Both the position numbers and the translations under genes were made by a program. DNA of 35,667 nucleotides from contig JACCVY010000121.1 in the NCBI GenBank assembly GCA_013697915.1, positions 1-35,667 on the forward strand, written 5' to 3'. Each line of letters opens with the position of its first letter. Position 1 is the first letter of the stretch. Source of the stretch: Blastocatellia bacterium (lineage in GTDB: Bacteria > Acidobacteriota > Blastocatellia > Pyrinomonadales > Pyrinomonadaceae). This document shows, piece by piece, positions 13,000 to 22,105 of the stretch. Under the pieces are notes generated by a model. The model did no database searches, was not told where the DNA came from, and saw nothing but the letters and a program-made list of their open reading frames with translations.

Positions 13000-13908
13000 T
13001 TAGGCAACAATCATTGTGCCCGTACCGCTGTCGGTGAAGATTTCTGAGAGCAGGGCATTGCGGGTTGTGCCGCTCAAGATGTGCGCGCTATGGACGCCGC
13101 GCCGCAGCAAGGTGGTAATGCTTTGCAGTTTGGGAATCATGCCGCCGGTTGCGCTGCCGTCGGTAATCATGGCGTCAGCTTCAGCCGCAGTCAGACGAGA
13201 GAGTTTTGTTTCAGGCTGGCCAGGTTGCAGGTAAATACCATCAACATCGGAAAGCAGAATCAACTTCTCAGCTTTCAACTGTACGGCGATCTCCGCAGCG
13301 ATTGTGTCGGCGTTGATGTTGAAGACCGTGCCCTCGCTATCCGCACCGAGTGAAGAAATGACCGGCAAATAACCTTCATTCAACAGCACCGAGAGCAGCC
13401 GTGAATTGATCTCCACGACGTCACCGACGTGCCCAAAGTCCACTTGCGAACGCTCGCCCGTCTCGCGATTCAAAACCTCTTTCGGCGGACGCCGTTCAGC
13501 ATGGACGATGTTGCCATCAACGCCGGAAAGTCCCACCGCCTCGATGCTGCGATTACGCAGAGCTGCCAGGATGTCAGTATTGATTTTGCCCGCGAAAATC
13601 ATCTTGGCCATCTCGAGCGTGGCGTCGTCGGTAACGCGCCGGCCTTCAATGATCGTCTGTTCGATTCCCAGCTTCGAGGCGAGATCGGATAACTGTTTGC
13701 CGCCGCCATGCACCACGCAGATTCGTATGCCAACCTGATGCAGCAGCGCTAACTCTTCGGCAAGCGAACTCAAATTGTCAGGATCTTCCGTGGCTTTGCC
13801 TGAAAGTTTCACAACAAAGGTCTGCCCCTGGAAGCGTTGAATGTAGGGCAGCGCCTCGCGCAACAGATCCAGCCGCAATTGATCGCCGACTTGGTGGGTA
13901 TTAGTCAT
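13000..13908 (-). CDS. argB: Acetylglutamate (N-acylglutamate) kinase
   Basis: 302-residue amino-acid kinase catalysing ATP-dependent phosphorylation of N-acylglutamate, the second step of arginine synthesis. Motifs: phosphate-binding VVKLSGKA and VVHGGGKQLSDLASKLGI, substrate segment EGRRVTDDATLEMAKMIFAG, NINADTIAAEIA, and LLSDVDGIY; the family C-terminal GGMIPKL is present. A leading helix before the core (LRLDLLREALPYIQRFQG) resembles the extra N-terminal helix of arginine-inhibited hexameric forms, so feedback inhibition is possible. The insert between the ERRPPKEVL and VDFGHVGDVVEINSRLL segments is slightly longer than in the shortest homologues. Whether it prefers acetyl or succinyl glutamate is not readable; the carbamoyltransferase upstream makes the question relevant. 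It is last of the recognised arg genes in the minus-strand operon. Confidence 0.93.
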   Translation of the reverse strand: MTNTHQVGDQLRLDLLREALPYIQRFQGQTFVVKLSGKATEDPDNLSSLAEELALLHQVGIRICVVHGGGKQLSDLASKLGIEQTIIEGRRVTDDATLEMAKMIFAGKINTDILAALRNRSIEAVGLSGVDGNIVHAERRPPKEVLNRETGERSQVDFGHVGDVVEINSRLLSVLLNEGYLPVISSLGADSEGTVFNINADTIAAEIAVQLKAEKLILLSDVDGIYLQPGQPETKLSRLTAAEADAMITDGSATGGMIPKLQSITTLLRRGVHSAHILSGTTRNALLSEIFTDSGTGTMIVA

Positions 13909-13912
13909 ATCG

Positions 13913-14022
13913 TAAGTGCTAAGTGCTAAGTGCTAAGTGCCAAGTGCCAAGTGCTGAGTACTGAGTTCTGATGTTGACGAGGGTTGAGTTTTTTACTCAG
14001 TACTCAGGCACTCAGAACTCTT
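13913..14022. repeat. Inverted heptamer array (TAAGTGC/TGAGTAC / ACTCAGT)
   Basis: Left arm 13913-13975 is nine 7-mers: TAAGTGC x4, CAAGTGC x2, TGAGTAC, TGAGTTC, TGATGTT. Right arm 13995-14022 has ACTCAGT, ACTCAGG, CACTCAG, AACTCTT. The right arm overlaps the last codons and stop of the carbamoyltransferase gene (stop at 14004-14006), so residues VLSA at its C-terminus are repeat-encoded. The left arm begins five bases upstream of the argB ATG. Confidence 0.88.
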
Positions 14023-15008
14023 CTCATGATTGCCTTCTGCACATGCAAACGGTTTTCCGCTTCATCGATAACGACTGAAGCCGGCGAATCGATCACACCA
14101 TCGGTGACGATGACATTGCGTCGAACCGGCAAACAGTGCATGAAGATGCCCCGGTTCGTGCGCGCCATTTTCGGCTCATCGACAATCCACTGGTCGCGAT
14201 ACTGTGCGCGCGCCGCAATATCCTTTTCAGGCGTTCCGTAAAACTGTTTCGCTCCCCAACTCTTTGCGTAGACAACTTCGGCGCCGTCAAATGCCGCGTC
14301 GATGTTCTTCGTTACCTGGACGCCGCCGCCGCTCGCCGACGCCCGCTGCGTGATCGTTTCCATTAGCTCTTCGTCAAGCTCATAACCGGTCGGATAGGCT
14401 ATCACCAGATCGTGGCCCATCTGCGCGGCCGCGAGCGCAAAACTATTTGGCACCGCCATCGGCAACGGTTTGGGATGCCAGGCCCAGGTCAGCACGACGC
14501 GCTTGCTTTCGGTGCCGAGCTTTTCGCGAATCGTCATCATGTCGGCCAGCGCCTGACATGGGTGGTGCATAGCAGACTCAAGATTGATGATCGGCACCTC
14601 GGAATATCTTGCGAATGCGTTCAAGATTGGATCTGTTCGCTCTTCATCCCAGTTCTTTAGCGCAGCAAACGTGCGTACGCCTATCGCTTCACAATAGCGG
14701 CCGAGCACGCGGACAAACTCAACAATATGTTCCGTCTTGTCGCCATCCATCACCGCGCCTTCGCGATGCTCAAGGGTCCAGCTTGTGCCGCCCGGCTCAA
14801 GGATTACTGCATGACCACCCAATTCCTGAATTCCGATTTGCATCGAAGCCCGCGTGCGCAGGCTGGGATTGAAGAAGACAAGCGCAACCGGCTTGTTGGC
14901 AAGCGGCTTTGATTTGTCAGCACCACTCTTGAATCGCAGTGCAGCATCGATCAATTGGTTCAATTGGTCGCGGCTCAAATCGGAGGTTGTCAGAAAATTC
15001 TTAAGCAA
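14004..15008 (-). CDS. argF': N-acylornithine carbamoyltransferase (acetyl/succinylornithine type)
   Basis: Transfers the carbamoyl group to an N-acylated ornithine, giving N-acylcitrulline; 334 residues from the TTG at 15008 (MLKNFLTTSDLS). I choose that start because upstream codons translate a palindrome arm and no ATG is in frame; a TTG at 15062 is the alternative. Carbamoyl-phosphate site FFNPSLRTR (45-53), MDGDKTEHI (87-95), HPCQALAD (149-156), TWAWHPKPLPMAVPNS (174-189) and MHCLPVRRN (290-298) match the N-acetyl/N-succinylornithine family rather than ordinary ornithine carbamoyltransferase. At the position that separates acetyl (Glu92, Xanthomonas) from succinyl (Pro90, Bacteroides) enzymes this protein has Thr92. 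At the position of the carboxylated Lys302 of the Xanthomonas enzyme it has Ile. Exact substrate is therefore open. Confidence 0.9.
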   Translation of the reverse strand: MLKNFLTTSDLSRDQLNQLIDAALRFKSGADKSKPLANKPVALVFFNPSLRTRASMQIGIQELGGHAVILEPGGTSWTLEHREGAVMDGDKTEHIVEFVRVLGRYCEAIGVRTFAALKNWDEERTDPILNAFARYSEVPIINLESAMHHPCQALADMMTIREKLGTESKRVVLTWAWHPKPLPMAVPNSFALAAAQMGHDLVIAYPTGYELDEELMETITQRASASGGGVQVTKNIDAAFDGAEVVYAKSWGAKQFYGTPEKDIAARAQYRDQWIVDEPKMARTNRGIFMHCLPVRRNVIVTDGVIDSPASVVIDEAENRLHVQKAIMRRVLSA

Positions 15009-15023
15009 TTTTTTCCCAATCAA

Positions 15024-15159
15024 AGCGGGGGCAAACCGCCCTTCCCGACCTCGAGACTCCAAACTTGAAACATGAGCGGGAACTTTGAAAGCCTTTCAAT
15101 GTGATCAATGCAATCAAGTGCGAGCAGCTCAAGGTCGGGAAGGGCGGGTTGCCCCCGCT
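15024..15159. repeat. Palindromic element with 32-bp arms (family GCGGGGGCAA)
   Basis: Arms 15024-15055 and 15128-15159 are inverted copies with two mismatches in 32 (AGCGGGGGCAAACCGCCCTT and its complement). The arm sequence matches the arms of the element at 16391-16485, so two copies sit in successive gaps of the operon. It overlaps the possible TTG start region of the carbamoyltransferase gene. Confidence 0.85.
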
Positions 15160-15180: not shown

Positions 15181-16368
15181 TTACGCAAGTACCTCAACCA
15201 ACTTTTCTACGAACAGGTCAACCTCAGGTCGTTTCAAACACAACGGCGGTAGAAGTCTTAGCACGTTTGCATCGCTGGAAGTGCCGGCAATGATCTTGCG
15301 CCCAAGTAGCGCTTCGTGAATTGCTTTCGCTGGAGTCGCAAACTCAATCCCCAGCAAAAACCCTTTGCCGCGAACGTTCACAACCTGCTCAACCTCTTTC
15401 AGCCGCTCTCGCAAATGAGCTTCAACCGTTCTCACATTCTCAAGCATACGATCTTCTTCAATTGCTTCGAGCGTCGCGTTCACCGCCGCCATCGCGATCA
15501 TGCCGCCACCGAAAGTTGTCCCAAGATCGTTTTCCTTGATCTGCGCTGCGACGTGTTCGTTAACTAAACAAGCGCCAACTGGAATACCGCTTCCGAGCGC
15601 TTTTGCCAGCGTGACAATGTCAGGAACAACTCCCGCGCCAGCCTCGCTGCCCGCAAAAAACCATTCGCCGGTTCGTCCCACCCCGGTCTGCACTTCGTCA
15701 TAGATCAAAACGATGCCGCGTTCATCGCACAGGTTCCGGAGGGAGCTGTAAAACTCCGGCCCGGCCATGCGCACGCCGGCCATCGACTGAATCGGCTCGA
15801 GCATGATGGCAGCAATGGTTTCATCCGCAAGCGCGCGCGCTGATTCAATATCGCCGAACTCCGCCTGCAAATGACCCGGCACATTCGGCTTGCCGATTTC
15901 ACGATACTTACCGAGGAAAGTGGCGCTGATTGAATCAGCGGTGCGCCCGTGAAAGCCACCTGAAAAAGTGATGATATTTTCGCGGCCCGTTTTCAGGCGT
16001 GCCATGCGCATCGCATTCTCGTTGGCTTCGGTGCCGGAATTACAAAAGAAAACTTTACTCAGCGTTTCCGGCGCAATTGAAATCAACTTAGCTGCCGCGC
16101 GCGCGCGTGCTTCGGAATAGACCAGATTCGAATAAAACAACAGCTTTTCTGTTTGCTTGCGAATCGCGGCAACCACGTGCGGGTGACAGTGACCGGTTGC
16201 CGCTACAGCGTGGCCACCGTACAAGTCCAGATACTTCTCGCCGTCAATCGTATAGAGCCAAACACCTTCGCCGCGCTCAGCGACGATCGGCATTTTCTTA
16301 TACGTCGCCAGTTGAAAGCGCTCTTCGCAGTCTCTGACCTTTTTAAGTTTTGCAGCCAGTGCTTCCAT
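15181..16368 (-). CDS. argD: Acetylornithine (N-acylornithine) aminotransferase
   Basis: Class III PLP aminotransferase, 395 residues, converting N-acylglutamate semialdehyde to N-acylornithine with glutamate as amino donor. Motifs: GHCHPHVVAAI, SGTEANENAMRMAR, FSGGFHGRT, VLIYDEVQTGVGRTG, and the Schiff-base lysine in DIVTLAKALGSGIPVGA. The C-terminal RGKGFLLGIEF and NVLRLLPPLCL segments complete the fold. Length is typical. It lies between argC and the carbamoyltransferase in the minus-strand operon; both flanking gaps contain members of one 32-bp-arm palindrome family. The family also includes succinylornithine aminotransferases, and the sequence does not by itself decide the acyl group. 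Confidence 0.94.
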   Translation of the reverse strand: MEALAAKLKKVRDCEERFQLATYKKMPIVAERGEGVWLYTIDGEKYLDLYGGHAVAATGHCHPHVVAAIRKQTEKLLFYSNLVYSEARARAAAKLISIAPETLSKVFFCNSGTEANENAMRMARLKTGRENIITFSGGFHGRTADSISATFLGKYREIGKPNVPGHLQAEFGDIESARALADETIAAIMLEPIQSMAGVRMAGPEFYSSLRNLCDERGIVLIYDEVQTGVGRTGEWFFAGSEAGAGVVPDIVTLAKALGSGIPVGACLVNEHVAAQIKENDLGTTFGGGMIAMAAVNATLEAIEEDRMLENVRTVEAHLRERLKEVEQVVNVRGKGFLLGIEFATPAKAIHEALLGRKIIAGTSSDANVLRLLPPLCLKRPEVDLFVEKLVEVLA

Positions 16369-16562: not shown

Positions 16563-17612
16563 TCATGGATTGGTGCCCACCAACATCAAGCCTGTTTTCT
16601 CATCCAGGCCAAACATTAAATTCATATTCTGCACCGCCTGGCCCGCGGCGCCTTTCACCAGATTGTCGATTGCTGAAAACACAACAACGCTTCGTCCGCG
16701 CGTTGCAAATCCGAGGTCGCAGAAATTTGTCGTCTTCACCCAGTTAATGTCCGGGGATCCTTCAACCAATCGTATGAAAAATGAATCGCGATAGAACTCG
16801 GCAAACATGGCGCGGAGTTGTTGTTCACTTAAGTCGCTATTCGTTTCGACGTAGATTGACGCGAAGATGCCGCGAGACACGGGCAATGAGTGGGTCATGA
16901 AAACAAGTTCGCTGGTCCAATCGCCAATCGTGCGCAGTTCCTGTTCGATCTCAGGCACATGTTGATGCGTAAAGGGCTTGTAGGCGTAGAACGAATTCAT
17001 CCGCTGAGGGTGGTGGGTGTTGGCAGCCGCCTTGGCGCCCGAGCCCGATGAACCAGTTTTGGCGTCCACGATAACGCGGCCGTTGATTACGCCCTTCGCG
17101 GCCAGGGGCGCGAGACCAAGCAGCGTTGCGGTCGCAAAGCAACCGGGGTTGGCAATCAGCCGAGCGCTTTTAATCGCTGCTCTATTTGTTTCCGTCAGTC
17201 CGTAAACAAACTCCGCTTGCGAAGACATGGCTATGTGTGGGCGAGCGTAATGCTTTTCAAATGCCTGTTGGTCGCGCAAACGAAAATCGCCGGACAAATC
17301 AATTGCTTTCACATGCGCCGGCAACGTAGGCACGACAGCCATCGCCTGACCGTGCGGCAGTGCGAGAAAAACACAATCGATAGCCGTTAGTGCCGATGGT
17401 TCTTCAGGTGGGGAACAGAAAATGAGATCAGTTAATCCCGCGAGGTTGCGATGAACTTCGCTAACACGTTTGCCTGCCTGTTCGTTCGCGGTGACGAACA
17501 CAAGCTCGACGTTGGGATGCAGCAGCAGGATGCGCAGCAGTTCCGAGCCGCCATAACCCGAGCCGCCATAGATGGCGACGCGGAGTTTCGAGTTTCGAGT
17601 TTCGAGTTTCAT
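16563..17612 (-). CDS. argC: N-acetyl-gamma-glutamyl-phosphate reductase
   Basis: 349-residue NADPH-dependent reductase that makes N-acylglutamate semialdehyde. Motifs: nucleotide-binding YGGSGYGGSELLRIL, FLALPHGQA, DLSGDFRLRD, catalytic cysteine in ANPGCFATATLLGLAPL, and histidine-containing VFMTHSLPVSRGI. The first nine codons (MKLETRNSKL) are translated from the heptamer array at 17583-17610, so the natural N-terminus of the family (RVAIYGGSGYGG) has been extended by repeat sequence. No alternative start closer to the fold was seen. The stop-to-start gap to the upstream P-loop gene is only 26 bp. Together with argB, argD and the carbamoyltransferase it forms the acylated branch of the pathway. 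Confidence 0.94.
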   Translation of the reverse strand: MKLETRNSKLRVAIYGGSGYGGSELLRILLLHPNVELVFVTANEQAGKRVSEVHRNLAGLTDLIFCSPPEEPSALTAIDCVFLALPHGQAMAVVPTLPAHVKAIDLSGDFRLRDQQAFEKHYARPHIAMSSQAEFVYGLTETNRAAIKSARLIANPGCFATATLLGLAPLAAKGVINGRVIVDAKTGSSGSGAKAAANTHHPQRMNSFYAYKPFTHQHVPEIEQELRTIGDWTSELVFMTHSLPVSRGIFASIYVETNSDLSEQQLRAMFAEFYRDSFFIRLVEGSPDINWVKTTNFCDLGFATRGRSVVVFSAIDNLVKGAAGQAVQNMNLMFGLDEKTGLMLVGTNP

Positions 17613-17695
17613 TTTTCAAATATAACGCTTGAATGTTTTCAGACTTCGGACGTAACCAGCGAACTCGGAACTCGGAACTCGAAACTCGAAACTTT
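17583..17695. repeat. Inverted heptamer array (GAGTTTC / GAAACTC) overlapping two coding ends
   Basis: Left arm 17583-17610 is four identical GAGTTTC units. Right arm 17661-17695 is GAACTCG x3, AAACTCG, AAACTTT. The left arm lies within the first codons of argC and the right arm within the last codons of the P-loop gene, leaving a spacer of about 50 bp. This is the clearest case of an array entering coding sequence at both sides. Confidence 0.9.
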
Positions 17696-18742
17696 TGGTC
17701 TGACCAGTTCAAACAATCTTGCGCCATCGCGTCGCGCGTTGGCGGCGGGCACGCCAAACTCTTTCTCAATGTAATCCTGGCCCATCTGGGCGTCCGTGAC
17801 GGAGCCGGCAATCACGTCAATTTCGATCCCGCGTCGCCGCATGAGCTCGATTCCGCCCCAGGCACCGACGTAATCGGAAGCACAGAAAATGATCGCAGCG
17901 GTAGCTTCGCGCAATTGCGCGTCATCGAAAATCGTTTCTACGGAATATCCGCCGAGCAGGCCGTCGCCGAGTTCGATCACAATCAGATCGGCATTACTCT
18001 CGTTAAGTCGAGCAATAATTGTTTTGGCGACGGCCGGAAGGTCCGCGGCCCCAACCGTTGAGGGCAGCCCGCAGTCAAGAAAACTTGCCGTAGCAATCGC
18101 GCCATGATCCGACATATTCAGGGTGTCGCGCAGACAGGCGATACCTGACAGTTTTGCCGCGGCTACGCGCAGACCCGCGCGCGTCGCTTGTTTAATGAGT
18201 TCCGTGGCGGCGTAGGTCTTCCCGCTGTTCATGCAGGTGCCGGCGATGATTATTATTGGCGCGGTTTCGGTGAGTTCTGTTTGCACTGTCAAGGCAGCGT
18301 CCGCAATATTCATCGTGCGGGCATTCTCGTCGCACGCGAAACCAAGTACTTCGACCTTGATCGCATCGCTCAAACCCGAATGATGGCCGGTGCAACTGCC
18401 GATCACGCCACCCATATTCAGCAAATGCAATTGATCGCCGACTGCCACAGTCGTGGGCACATCGCCCATGAAGCCTTTCAACGCGCGCCGCCGGCCCAGC
18501 ACACCGACGAGCACATCGCCTGGATTAATTTTGGCAAGGCGACCGCTTGGCAGTTCAAGCATGTTGTAGGTAGCGCTGTCAGTCAGGGCGCGCACTACGA
18601 CCACATCGCCGGGCAGCGGAGACTTTGACGATGGACAAATTGCGATCGTGCGGTTCAGGCCGAGCGGGGAAGTGGCTGAACCGATCTTATCGACCTCGAT
18701 AACGTTCATCTCCAAGTCATGGTTGGCTTTGTTCTCTTTCAT
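17639..18742 (-). CDS. Unrecognised P-loop protein within the arginine operon
   Basis: About 367 residues; I do not recognise the family securely. The N-terminal third is beta-rich without a Rossmann pattern (GDVVVVRALTDSATYNMLEL, GDVLVGVLGRRRALKGFMGD, VAVGDQLHLLNMGGVIGSCT). The C-terminal part is a P-loop domain with Walker-A-like IIAGTCMNSGKTYAATELI (near residue 167), a Walker-B/dethiobiotin-synthetase-like strand ADLIVIELGDGLLGGY and AAIIFCASDYVGAWGG. The P-loop half distantly resembles the C-terminal domain of DUF1611 proteins, some of which I recall as glutamate N-acetyltransferases; the N-terminal half does not. Start: ATG at 18742 with AGAGGGG upstream. The last 18 residues are encoded by a heptamer array and are probably not part of the fold. 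Position between argG and argC implies a role in, or coupled to, arginine synthesis. Confidence 0.75.
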   Translation of the reverse strand: MKENKANHDLEMNVIEVDKIGSATSPLGLNRTIAICPSSKSPLPGDVVVVRALTDSATYNMLELPSGRLAKINPGDVLVGVLGRRRALKGFMGDVPTTVAVGDQLHLLNMGGVIGSCTGHHSGLSDAIKVEVLGFACDENARTMNIADAALTVQTELTETAPIIIIAGTCMNSGKTYAATELIKQATRAGLRVAAAKLSGIACLRDTLNMSDHGAIATASFLDCGLPSTVGAADLPAVAKTIIARLNESNADLIVIELGDGLLGGYSVETIFDDAQLREATAAIIFCASDYVGAWGGIELMRRRGIEIDVIAGSVTDAQMGQDYIEKEFGVPAANARRDGARLFELVRPKVSSFEFRVPSSLVTSEV

Positions 18743-18767
18743 TTGCAAAACCCCTCTTCGTTCTTAC

Positions 18768-18948: not shown

Positions 18949-20148
18949 TCAACGCTTGTTCCCCAATCGCAGCCGCAGCGCATTGAGTTTGATAAAGCCC
19001 TCGGCGTCGCGCTGGTTGTAAACCGTGTCTGCTTCAAACGTCGCCACACTCTCGTCGTACAACGAATGCGGCGAGCGGCGGCCGACAACGATAACGTTGC
19101 CGCGAAAGAGTTTCAAACGAACATCGCCGCTCACATTCTGTTGCGTTTCGTCAATCAGCTTGCGCATCAGCGTAGACTCGGGAGCAAACCAAAAACCGTA
19201 GTAAATGCTTTCCGCAAACTTCACGCTCAACGAATCGCGCAGGTGCATTACCTCGCGATCGAGCGTGATTGATTCCAGGGCCCGGTGCGCTGCCTGCAAA
19301 ATCGTGACGCCGGGCGTTTCGTAAACGCCGCGGGATTTCATGCCCACAAAACGATTCTCAACCAGATCGACGCGGCCAATACCGTGTGCGCCGCCCAGTT
19401 TGTTTAGACTTTCGAGCAGTGCGACCGGCGCCAGTTTCTCGCCGTTGATTGCTACGGGCTCGCCCTTTTCGAATGACAATTCAATGTATTCGGCCTCTGA
19501 CGTAGCAGCTTCAGGAGAACGCGTCATTTGAAATATGTCCTCGGGCGGCTCAGCCCAGGGATCTTCAAGAATTCCACCCTCATAGGAAACGTGCATCAAG
19601 TTGCGATCAGTCGAATAAGGTTTCTGCTGTGTCGCTGTTACCGGAATGTGGTGCTCTTTTGCATAAGCGATCAGATCGCTGCGGCCCTTGAACTCCCACT
19701 CGCGCCAGGGAGCTACTACCTTGATGTCCGGTTGGAGCGCGTAGTAAGTAAGTTCGAAGCGCACCTGATCGTTTCCTTTGCCTGTGGCGCCGTGGGCTAC
19801 CGCATCAGCGCCTTCTTTCTGTGCGATTTCGATCTGGCGCTTTGCGATCACCGGACGGGCCAGCGAAGTGCCCAATAAATAAACACCCTCGTAGATCGCG
19901 TTCGCTTTGACTGCAGTCCAAACGTATTCACACACAAACTCGTCCCGCAGATCTTCGACATAAAGTTTTGACGCACCGCTGGCGAGCGCTTTTTCTTCGA
20001 GACTACTCAGTTCGTCGCCCTGGCCGACATCGGCGCAGTAGCAAACAACTTCGCAGTCATAGCGTTCCTTAATCCAGCGCAGCATGACCGACGTGTCGAG
20101 TCCGCCGGAATAGGCCAGAACTATTTTATTGATTTTTTTATCCGCCAT
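18949..20148 (-). CDS. argG: Argininosuccinate synthase
   Basis: 399-residue cytoplasmic enzyme joining citrulline and aspartate with ATP hydrolysis to AMP. Motifs: N-terminal ATP-pyrophosphatase loop [49 protein letters not shown], and [17 protein letters not shown]. Length is normal for the family. The gap upstream to argR is filled with a heptamer array, so it is probably cotranscribed from the argR promoter. It uses free citrulline. In the pathway drawn by the neighbouring N-acylornithine carbamoyltransferase, an acylcitrulline deacylase would have to act first, and none is seen in this window. Confidence 0.96.
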
Positions 20149-20220: not shown

Positions 20221-20634
20221 CTATCCAAAAATCTCCCAAATCTTCTTCATCGCAGTCCGTTGCCCTTTCGCATCGGGCACGGCAATGAAGATGGTGTCTT
20301 CACCCGCCAACGTGCCTACGATTTCAGGTAATACGGCGCCATCGATTTCCACGGCCACGCCGGAAGCCAGGCCGGGCTCAGTTCGCGCGATCACCAGATT
20401 CTCGCCACACAAATCGAGACTAAGCAGCCCGCGCGCCGCGCTGCCATTCGTTTTCGGGATCGCATAGTGGCCGCGATGCTTTACAATGCCCAACTCTTCC
20501 AGGTCGCGCGACAGACTTGACTGCGTCGTGGCAAAACCGGCGCGCTCAAGCGAATCGCGCAACTCCGCCTGGTTGGAAAATGGTTTGGCGCGCACCAGAC
20601 TTAATAATTTCTTTTGCCGCAGGCTTTTTCGCAT
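20221..20634 (-). CDS. argR: Arginine repressor
   Basis: 137-residue transcription regulator of the ArgR/AhrC family. The N-terminal winged-helix domain has the helix-turn-helix segment TTQSSLSRDLEELGIVK (family SxSRDL motif). The C-terminal hexamerisation and arginine-binding domain includes ASGVAVEID and VGTLAGEDTIFIAVPD, where the aspartate that contacts arginine is expected. Length is slightly below the usual 150. It is the first gene of the minus-strand arginine operon and is divergent from argH, so it probably controls itself, the operon and argH from one operator region at 20648-20687. Arginine acts as corepressor in known members. Confidence 0.94.
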   Translation of the reverse strand: MRKSLRQKKLLSLVRAKPFSNQAELRDSLERAGFATTQSSLSRDLEELGIVKHRGHYAIPKTNGSAARGLLSLDLCGENLVIARTEPGLASGVAVEIDGAVLPEIVGTLAGEDTIFIAVPDAKGQRTAMKKIWEIFG

Positions 20635-20728: not shown

Positions 20729-22105
20729 ATGACGTTGGACAAGAAACTCTGGGGCGGAAGATTCACGGGCACGGCGGATCCGTCGTTTGCAAAGTTCAAT
20801 TCGTCTTTCGCATTTGACCGGCGACTTTTCGACGCAGACATCCGCGCGAGCATTGCTCATTGCCATGCGTTGCGCGGCGCGGGTGTGTTGACTGAGGCAG
20901 AAGCGGAACAAATTGTTGTCGGCTTGCAATCAGCACTCGATGAAGCTACTAGCCGCGCAGATTATTTTGACGAAGCGGCCGAGGACATTCATTCATTCGT
21001 CGAAGCTCGGTTGGTGGCAATGATTGGCGAGGCCGGGCGAAAGTTGCACACCGGGCGCAGCCGCAACGATCAGGTCGCCACCGACCTGCGGCTTTGGTTG
21101 CGAGATGCGATTGATCAATTGTCCGCCCGCTTGAAACAAACCCAGGAGGCCTTCCTCGACCTCGCGGACACGGAAACCGAGACAGTGCTGCCCGGTTACA
21201 CCCACCTGCAACGCGCGCAGCCAATTCTTTTTGCGCATTGGTGTCTGGCCTACTTTGAGATGCTGGCGCGCGACAGAGAGCGACTGGCTGAAGTTCGTAA
21301 ACGAGTTAATGTTCTGCCCCTGGGCTCGGCGGCGATCGCCGGCACTTCGTTTCCGATTGATCGCGAAGCAGTGGCGCGCGAGCTGGGATTCGATAGCGTT
21401 TCGCGCAACTCGATTGACGCGGTCAGCGATCGTGATTTCTGCGTTGAATTCACCGGCGCCTGCTCTTTAATCATGGTCCACCTTTCGCGCCTCTCCGAAG
21501 AAATCATACTCTATGCGACTGCTGAGTTTGGTTTTTTTGAATTGAGCGATGCGGTTGCTACCGGCTCGAGTTTAATGCCGCAAAAGAAGAACCCGGATTC
21601 GATGGAACTGGTGCGGGGAAAGGCGGGCCGCGTTTTCGGTGACCTGACGGCTTTGCTGACCACGTTAAAAGGTTTGCCGCTGGCTTACAACAAGGACATG
21701 CAGGAAGACAAAGAGGCGGTGTTTGACGCGTTTGATACGACTGCGGGCAGTCTTGAGGTCAGCGCGATCGTTCTGCAAAACCTGTCGCTAAATCGGGAAC
21801 GAATGCTCACGGCAGCATCAAAAGGAATGATGAACGCGACGGAGCTTGCCGATTACCTGGTGCGAAAGGGTGTGCCGTTTCGGGAGGCGCATGAAACGGT
21901 AGGTAAGGCAGTGCTGAAGGCCATAGAAAACTGCGTCGAACTCGGTGAACTACCGTTGGATGATCTGCGCGCGCTGGGCAACATCGAAAACGATGTATTC
22001 GAGTGTCTTACGCTTGAACAAACGCTCGGCACAAAGTCACAAGTTGGCGGGACTGCTCCCGCGCGAGTCGCTGAGGCGTTGGCGAACGCTCGAAGATTAC
22101 TTTAG
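20729..22105 (+). CDS. argH: Argininosuccinate lyase
   Basis: 458-residue enzyme of the fumarase/aspartase superfamily releasing arginine and fumarate. Motifs: LWGGRFTG at the start, HTGRSRNDQVATDLRLWLRD, TVLPGYTHLQRAQPI with catalytic His, and the superfamily signature GSSLMPQKKNPD containing the mobile catalytic Ser loop. Length is typical. ATG at 20729 is preceded by AAGGA with 10-bp spacing. It is transcribed away from argR through the shared control region. It is the only plus-strand gene of the locus; downstream is a repeat copy, not another arg gene. Confidence 0.96.
   Translation: MTLDKKLWGGRFTGTADPSFAKFNSSFAFDRRLFDADIRASIAHCHALRGAGVLTEAEAEQIVVGLQSALDEATSRADYFDEAAEDIHSFVEARLVAMIGEAGRKLHTGRSRNDQVATDLRLWLRDAIDQLSARLKQTQEAFLDLADTETETVLPGYTHLQRAQPILFAHWCLAYFEMLARDRERLAEVRKRVNVLPLGSAAIAGTSFPIDREAVARELGFDSVSRNSIDAVSDRDFCVEFTGACSLIMVHLSRLSEEIILYATAEFGFFELSDAVATGSSLMPQKKNPDSMELVRGKAGRVFGDLTALLTTLKGLPLAYNKDMQEDKEAVFDAFDTTAGSLEVSAIVLQNLSLNRERMLTAASKGMMNATELADYLVRKGVPFREAHETVGKAVLKAIENCVELGELPLDDLRALGNIENDVFECLTLEQTLGTKSQVGGTAPARVAEALANARRLL

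Follow-up and report, generated by a model that had tools for sequence, protein, structure and literature searches.

The window analysed here is a 35,667-nucleotide stretch of contig C170 from a 4.5 Mb genome (completeness 97.4%) whose nearest named relatives are Pyrinomonadaceae. Its minus strand carries an arginine operon in the order argR-argG-P-argC-argD-argF′-argB, where P is our shorthand for the P-loop protein encoded at 17639-18742(-); argH is divergent. All neighbours were confirmed with Pfam and NCBIfam. For argR (20221-20634, -) both Pfam domains match, and the TIGR01529 match (E 5.7e-26) lies under the cut-off of that model. Argininosuccinate synthase, argG (18949-20148, -), scores above cut-off with TIGR00032 and NF001770; so do argC, the N-acyl-gamma-glutamyl-phosphate reductase (16563-17612, -; TIGR01850), argD, the N-acylornithine aminotransferase (15181-16368, -; NF002325), argB, the N-acylglutamate kinase (13000-13908, -; TIGR00761), and argH, argininosuccinate lyase (20729-22105, +; TIGR00838). 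The argF′ gene (14004-15062, -) encodes an N-acylornithine carbamoyltransferase of the AOTC/SOTC type, scoring 467.6 bits with NF003384 (cut-off 288) and carrying the N-succinyl-type residues T110, P201 and I318. P, for which we propose a role as N-acyl-L-glutamate synthase, lies between argG and argC. Its reading frame spans 17639-18748(-) from a TTG start; an ATG at 18742 is preceded by GAGGGG and gives a protein of 367 aa at 17639-18742. An earlier note on this DNA had read this gene as embedded in an arginine operon, and the reading frame, its coordinates, its length and its neighbours all hold. The gene is real: orthologues 66-92% identical occupy the same position in other Pyrinomonadaceae, and identity falls to about 32% across two phyla. 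We note that a short TTCGAGTTTCGAG-like repeat at 17580-17690 spans the boundary of P and argC, covering the end of the one gene and the start of the other, and seems to lengthen both frames at these ends. In one orthologue (L002:9992-10999) about 35 residues are absent after FLDCGL, either a true deletion or an assembly fault; at the same locus an inserted 392-aa ORF displaces argC.

The AlphaFold2 model of P, built with 32 orthologues (m0487663f2832), has a mean pLDDT of 93 and a pTM of 0.90 and comprises two domains. A beta-rich N-terminal domain (residues 1-155; 18278-18742, -) is predicted with pLDDT 93, both in the full model and when modelled alone (m723ea3317291). Modelled alone, it returned no fold match at E ≤ 0.001 from Foldseek against the PDB, which is not proof of a new fold. 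The C-terminal domain (residues 156-355; 17678-18277, -) was assigned by VIA-align of the model to the SIMIBI type of P-loop domain. The joining of a beta-rich to a P-loop domain, which the earlier note had described from the letters, is thus seen in the model. The Walker A motif GTCMNSGKT (residues 168-176; 18215-18241, -) retains GKT in every orthologue examined. A clade-specific motif, ELGDGLLGGY (residues 257-266; 17945-17974, -), takes the form E-x-G-D-G-x-x-G-x-Y within the clade and ExADGxxQxET in relatives outside arginine operons.

VIA-align superposes the P-loop domain on the DUF1611 proteins 2g0t (Z 16.7, rmsd 2.9, 173 residues aligned) and 2obn (Z 16.4, rmsd 2.9, 183 residues), on BioD and CTP synthase (Z about 16) and on DgcN (7xrj; Z 15.2, rmsd 3.1, 180 residues), an N-acetyltransferase by its PDB title. 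The Z scores of these proteins are nearly equal, so the fold of P tells its class and not its function. That class includes enzymes acting on amines and carboxylates, such as BioD, CTP synthase and DgcN. In sequence, PF07755 (DUF1611) matches only residues 161-197 of P (E 3e-5, 23.9 bits, gathering cut-off 25), and 16 of the 32 orthologues match it at E ≤ 0.01. The faint likeness to DUF1611 suggested earlier is therefore real, with the SIMIBI fold shared, but the kinship is distant: the match lies below the cut-off, and Pfam gave no match of P to the DUF1611 N-terminal domain, though absence of a match is no proof. P shares 12-17% identity with the DgcN and DUF1611 PDB chains, with no sequence match at the profile level. 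BioD and the synthetase domain of CTP synthase share the SIMIBI fold, and Lys197 of P aligns in the profile alignment with the lysine conserved after the second strand of BioD; they differ from P in having no such beta domain and in their substrates, and the sequences can be aligned over no more than roughly 45 residues at the start of the domain. NCBIfam gave no match to P, Pfam found neither a GNAT nor an ArgJ (PF01960) domain in it, and the PDB, searched with phmmer and with profiles, returned no family-level match, only the BioD/MobB P-loop strip. Profile searches and structure prediction, both proposed in the earlier note, place the P-loop half in the SIMIBI fold and give no secure family match.

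The earlier note had seen neither an argA- or argJ-like acyltransferase nor an argE-like deacylase in the operon. The former observation was borne out more widely than the operon. Pfam and NCBIfam show no acyltransferase fused to any arg gene of the operon, argB included, and no NAGS domain fused to argH; the source genome has no ArgJ (PF01960). It has 15 GNAT matches, two RimI being among those run against NCBIfam. None of the GNAT proteins so scanned reaches the cut-off of an NCBIfam NAGS model; the best, a RimI, scores 36.5 bits with the CG3035 NAGS model, whose cut-off is 280. The lack of a deacylase is true of the operon, but the genome does encode ArgE on contig C130 (TIGR01892, 419 bits, cut-off 297.7), so the deacylase missing from the operon sits outside it. 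Contig C118 of the source genome (L173:8010-8195, G000) also encodes a LysW-like zinc ribbon of 61 aa that has an acidic tail and lies in no lysine or arginine cluster; such ribbons are common in P-bearing and ArgJ-bearing Acidobacteriota alike.

The carbamoyltransferase carries information on the acyl group. N-acetylornithine transcarbamylases have Glu92, Asn185 and Lys302 (X. campestris numbering), where the N-succinylornithine enzymes have A/S/P/V/Q, P and V/I/E (PMC4581275). The source argF′ has T, P and I; the non-Glu, Pro and Ile residues are those of the N-succinyl type, although Thr is absent from the published list A/S/P/V/Q. In P-bearing loci with data across the phylum the residues are T/A/P/V, then P, then I/E, with a Lys at the third position in L058. 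Because these residues are of the N-succinyl type, the acyl group is most likely succinyl wherever argF′ is present, as judged from sequence. This reading does not extend to 13 P-bearing Acidobacteriota genomes, where argF′ was not found above cut-off. Second carbamoyltransferases scoring 246-264 bits with the AOTC model, below its cut-off, occur in three P-bearing genomes (G132:C67:4915-5868, G262:C155:6575-7525 and G172:C290:8006-8950). One acidobacterial genome lacking P (G064; L040:2140-8761) has a Xanthomonas-type set: an N-acetyl-type carbamoyltransferase with E, N and K at the three sites, an M20 deacylase and a NAGS/K fusion (PRK04531).

The gene context of P is strongly conserved. In 61 of the 64 loci inspected P has an arg gene on its own strand no more than 1.5 kb away, and in 58 argC is among these; one of the other three loci, L013, ends at a contig edge. 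The distance from P to argF′ is 2-6.5 kb in 52 of the 55 genomes that have both. The co-occurrence with argC and argF′ that the earlier note had suggested looking for was thus found. Minimal clusters (L050-L053, L062 and L063) consist of P-argC-argD-argB, that is P with the genes for steps 2-4, and have no argR. The fullest clusters, in Acidobacteriota (L056, L057, L060) and Planctomycetota (L138-L142), hold argG, P, argC, argD, argF′, argB, an M20 deacylase adjoining argB, and argH; some genes in these GC-rich clusters were placed by similarity within longer ORFs, so their exact starts are uncertain. These clusters cover all other steps and leave step 1 alone without another candidate. No GNAT was seen inside the P clusters inspected.

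P and ArgJ avoid one another. Among 297 Acidobacteriota genomes, 68 have P (strong matches), 111 have ArgJ, none has both and 118 have neither (Fisher test about 1e-16, shared ancestry ignored). At the level of GTDB families P is found in 17 and ArgJ in 27, with none shared (P value 3e-4). In Planctomycetota, 246 genomes sampled independently gave 83 with P, 95 with ArgJ, one with both and 69 with neither (Fisher about 1e-21, again ignoring shared ancestry); the single genome with both, G340, is 12.3 Mb in size. The earlier note had named P-loop homologues present irrespective of argJ as evidence that would count against it; across these 543 genomes the two coincide in 0 of 68 and 1 of 83 P-bearing genomes, and its proposal withstood the comparison. 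Taken alone, the exclusion of ArgJ places P with the linear pathway only and does not single out step 1.

In a tree of 71 sequences, all 61 from arginine operons of Acidobacteriota and Planctomycetota form one clade with support 100/97. Relatives outside arginine operons fall apart from this clade, yet hhalign shows homology along the full length (probability 100, 311 columns). These beta-domain-plus-P-loop paralogues (L044-L049, L061 and the plasmid copies L178 and L179) share GxxMxxGKT with P but can coexist with ArgJ. Several (L044, L046, L048, L061, L178, L179), on chromosomes and on Rhodobacterales plasmids, adjoin genes for ABC transporters and in some cases for peptidases. A distant relative of P with 31.6% identity (L177) comes from a plasmid of Priestia megaterium (NZ_CP085446.1, 84143-94149). 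It lies between split TPP-enzyme and ATP-grasp genes; the cluster also has a PEP-mutase-family gene and encodes an M20 peptidase, a LysE exporter and an ornithine carbamoyltransferase. The whole resembles a cluster for a phosphonate amino acid, where the P relative might attach an N-acyl protecting group and the M20 protein take it off again.

P is placed where the enzyme of the first step is expected and almost never occurs with ArgJ; it is thus probably a new N-acyl-glutamate synthase. We infer that P is a non-GNAT, non-ArgJ N-acyl-L-glutamate synthase, the first enzyme of the linear pathway and most likely succinylating, and put the probability of this at roughly three in four. In the proposed pathway P would acylate the amino group of L-glutamate, most likely with succinyl. 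ArgB, ArgC and ArgD would then give N-acyl-ornithine, which ArgF′ would convert to N-acyl-citrulline; an ArgE or M20 deacylase would strip off the acyl group before ArgG and ArgH complete arginine. The acyl donor could be succinyl-CoA, or succinate with ATP by way of an acyl-phosphate; both would fit the fold of P. An acyl-CoA donor is rated slightly above ATP, and the intact Walker A motif does not decide between them. In BioD and CTP synthase, the group that an amine attacks, a carbamate or an oxygen, is first activated with ATP. That P is an ATP-dependent succinate:L-glutamate ligase, with acyl-phosphate chemistry like that of these two enzymes, is a possibility we hold only tentatively. 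The earlier note had left synthase, ligase and regulator side by side. Position, ArgJ exclusion, the leftover first step and the argF′ signature strongly support a putative synthase. The regulator is disfavoured, and a ligase and an acyl-CoA transferase are not told apart.

Other roles have to be set against a synthase. P-loop proteins are often regulators, and P might regulate the arginine enzymes or help to assemble them, for instance as a nucleotide-dependent sensor of arginine or energy, with step 1 carried out by an unrecognised GNAT. P is present in 55 of 64 argF′-bearing Acidobacteriota and a NAGS/K fusion in one. Six Pyrinomonadaceae genomes without P (G141, G149, G173, G181, G227 and G204; loci L036-L039 and L043) keep argC-argD-argF′-argB and have argG, which is a point for the regulator and the chief objection to the synthase. 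All but G204, of another genus, belong to genus g3, and the argC tree does not resolve the genomes without P as a single clade. In the five with data the argF′ residues are T/P/I (four) or T/P/V (one). No ArgJ or other enzyme of step 1 was identified in these six, nor any step-1 enzyme in two further argF′-bearing genomes without P, G131 and G082 (the latter on a 4.3 kb contig). The six have 9-23 GNATs each among the matches listed; P-bearing and P-lacking sister genomes range from 9 to 26 per genome, likewise among the matches listed. With GNATs so plentiful, one of them could perform step 1 in the genomes lacking P, and an unrecognised GNAT could do likewise where P is present. Either a different acyltransferase serves the six, or the pathway does not strictly depend on P. 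Against a regulator, P is retained in the minimal clusters that have no argR and across 17 acidobacterial families, the inspected P clusters show no GNAT, and P is nearly absent from ArgJ genomes, where a protein that regulates the shared steps B, C and D would not have to vanish when ArgJ is gained. We consider such a role unlikely.

A deacylase, or another late step specific to the linear pathway such as freeing N-acyl-citrulline or N-acyl-ornithine of its acyl group, would exclude ArgJ just as a synthase would, and argE is indeed missing from the source operon. This role is nevertheless very improbable: the source genome has its above-cut-off ArgE elsewhere, many P clusters have their own M20 deacylase beside argB, step 1 would be left without an enzyme, and no SIMIBI P-loop domain is known to be an amidase. 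The M20 and ArgE genes and the minimal clusters together weaken both the deacylase and the regulator. Least probable of all is that P belongs to a route to arginine that runs on a LysW-like carrier protein. LysW-like ribbons do occur in many P-bearing genomes, but ArgJ genomes also carry them, and argB and argC of the source match free-intermediate families best. The ribbon of the source genome scores 43.9 bits against a cut-off of 53.2, has no lysine or arginine neighbours and lacks an EDWxE-type tail; this route was set aside.

Enzymes of the first step are known with other folds. ArgJ, ArgA (AAK-GNAT) and the NAGS/K fusion N-acetylate L-glutamate as the first step to arginine, the step proposed for P; their folds are unrelated to that of P, which contains none of their domains. 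In the arginine operon of Bacteroidetes the GNAT ArgA2/BT3761 has been proposed as an N-succinylglutamate synthase (PMC9026213, PMC7311316). It shares its proposed role with P, is likewise encoded in an arginine operon and accompanies an N-succinylornithine carbamoyltransferase; P instead joins a P-loop to an unmatched beta domain, and would thus be its non-orthologous replacement. DgcN is a D-glutamate N-acetyltransferase (EC 2.3.1.312; PMC11747546). Its chemistry, N-acylation of glutamate, resembles that proposed for P, but on the D isomer, L-glutamate being presumed for P, and it acts in D-glutamate catabolism whereas P belongs to an arginine operon.

P is real, conserved and widespread, and most likely represents a family of putative N-acyl-L-glutamate synthases of which we found no description in the part of the literature searched. 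If the proposed role is correct, this family, in about one quarter of the Acidobacteriota species sampled and one third of those from Planctomycetota, would take succinylated arginine synthesis beyond Bacteroidetes and add a fold class to the N-acylglutamate synthases. Proteins that at present are labelled hypothetical or DUF1611 would gain a role, and predictions of prototrophy would change for two phyla dominant in soil and aquatic habitats. Should P prove to be a ligase, arginine synthesis in large parts of both phyla would begin without acyl-CoA or ArgJ transacetylation, with a fold not previously connected with arginine.
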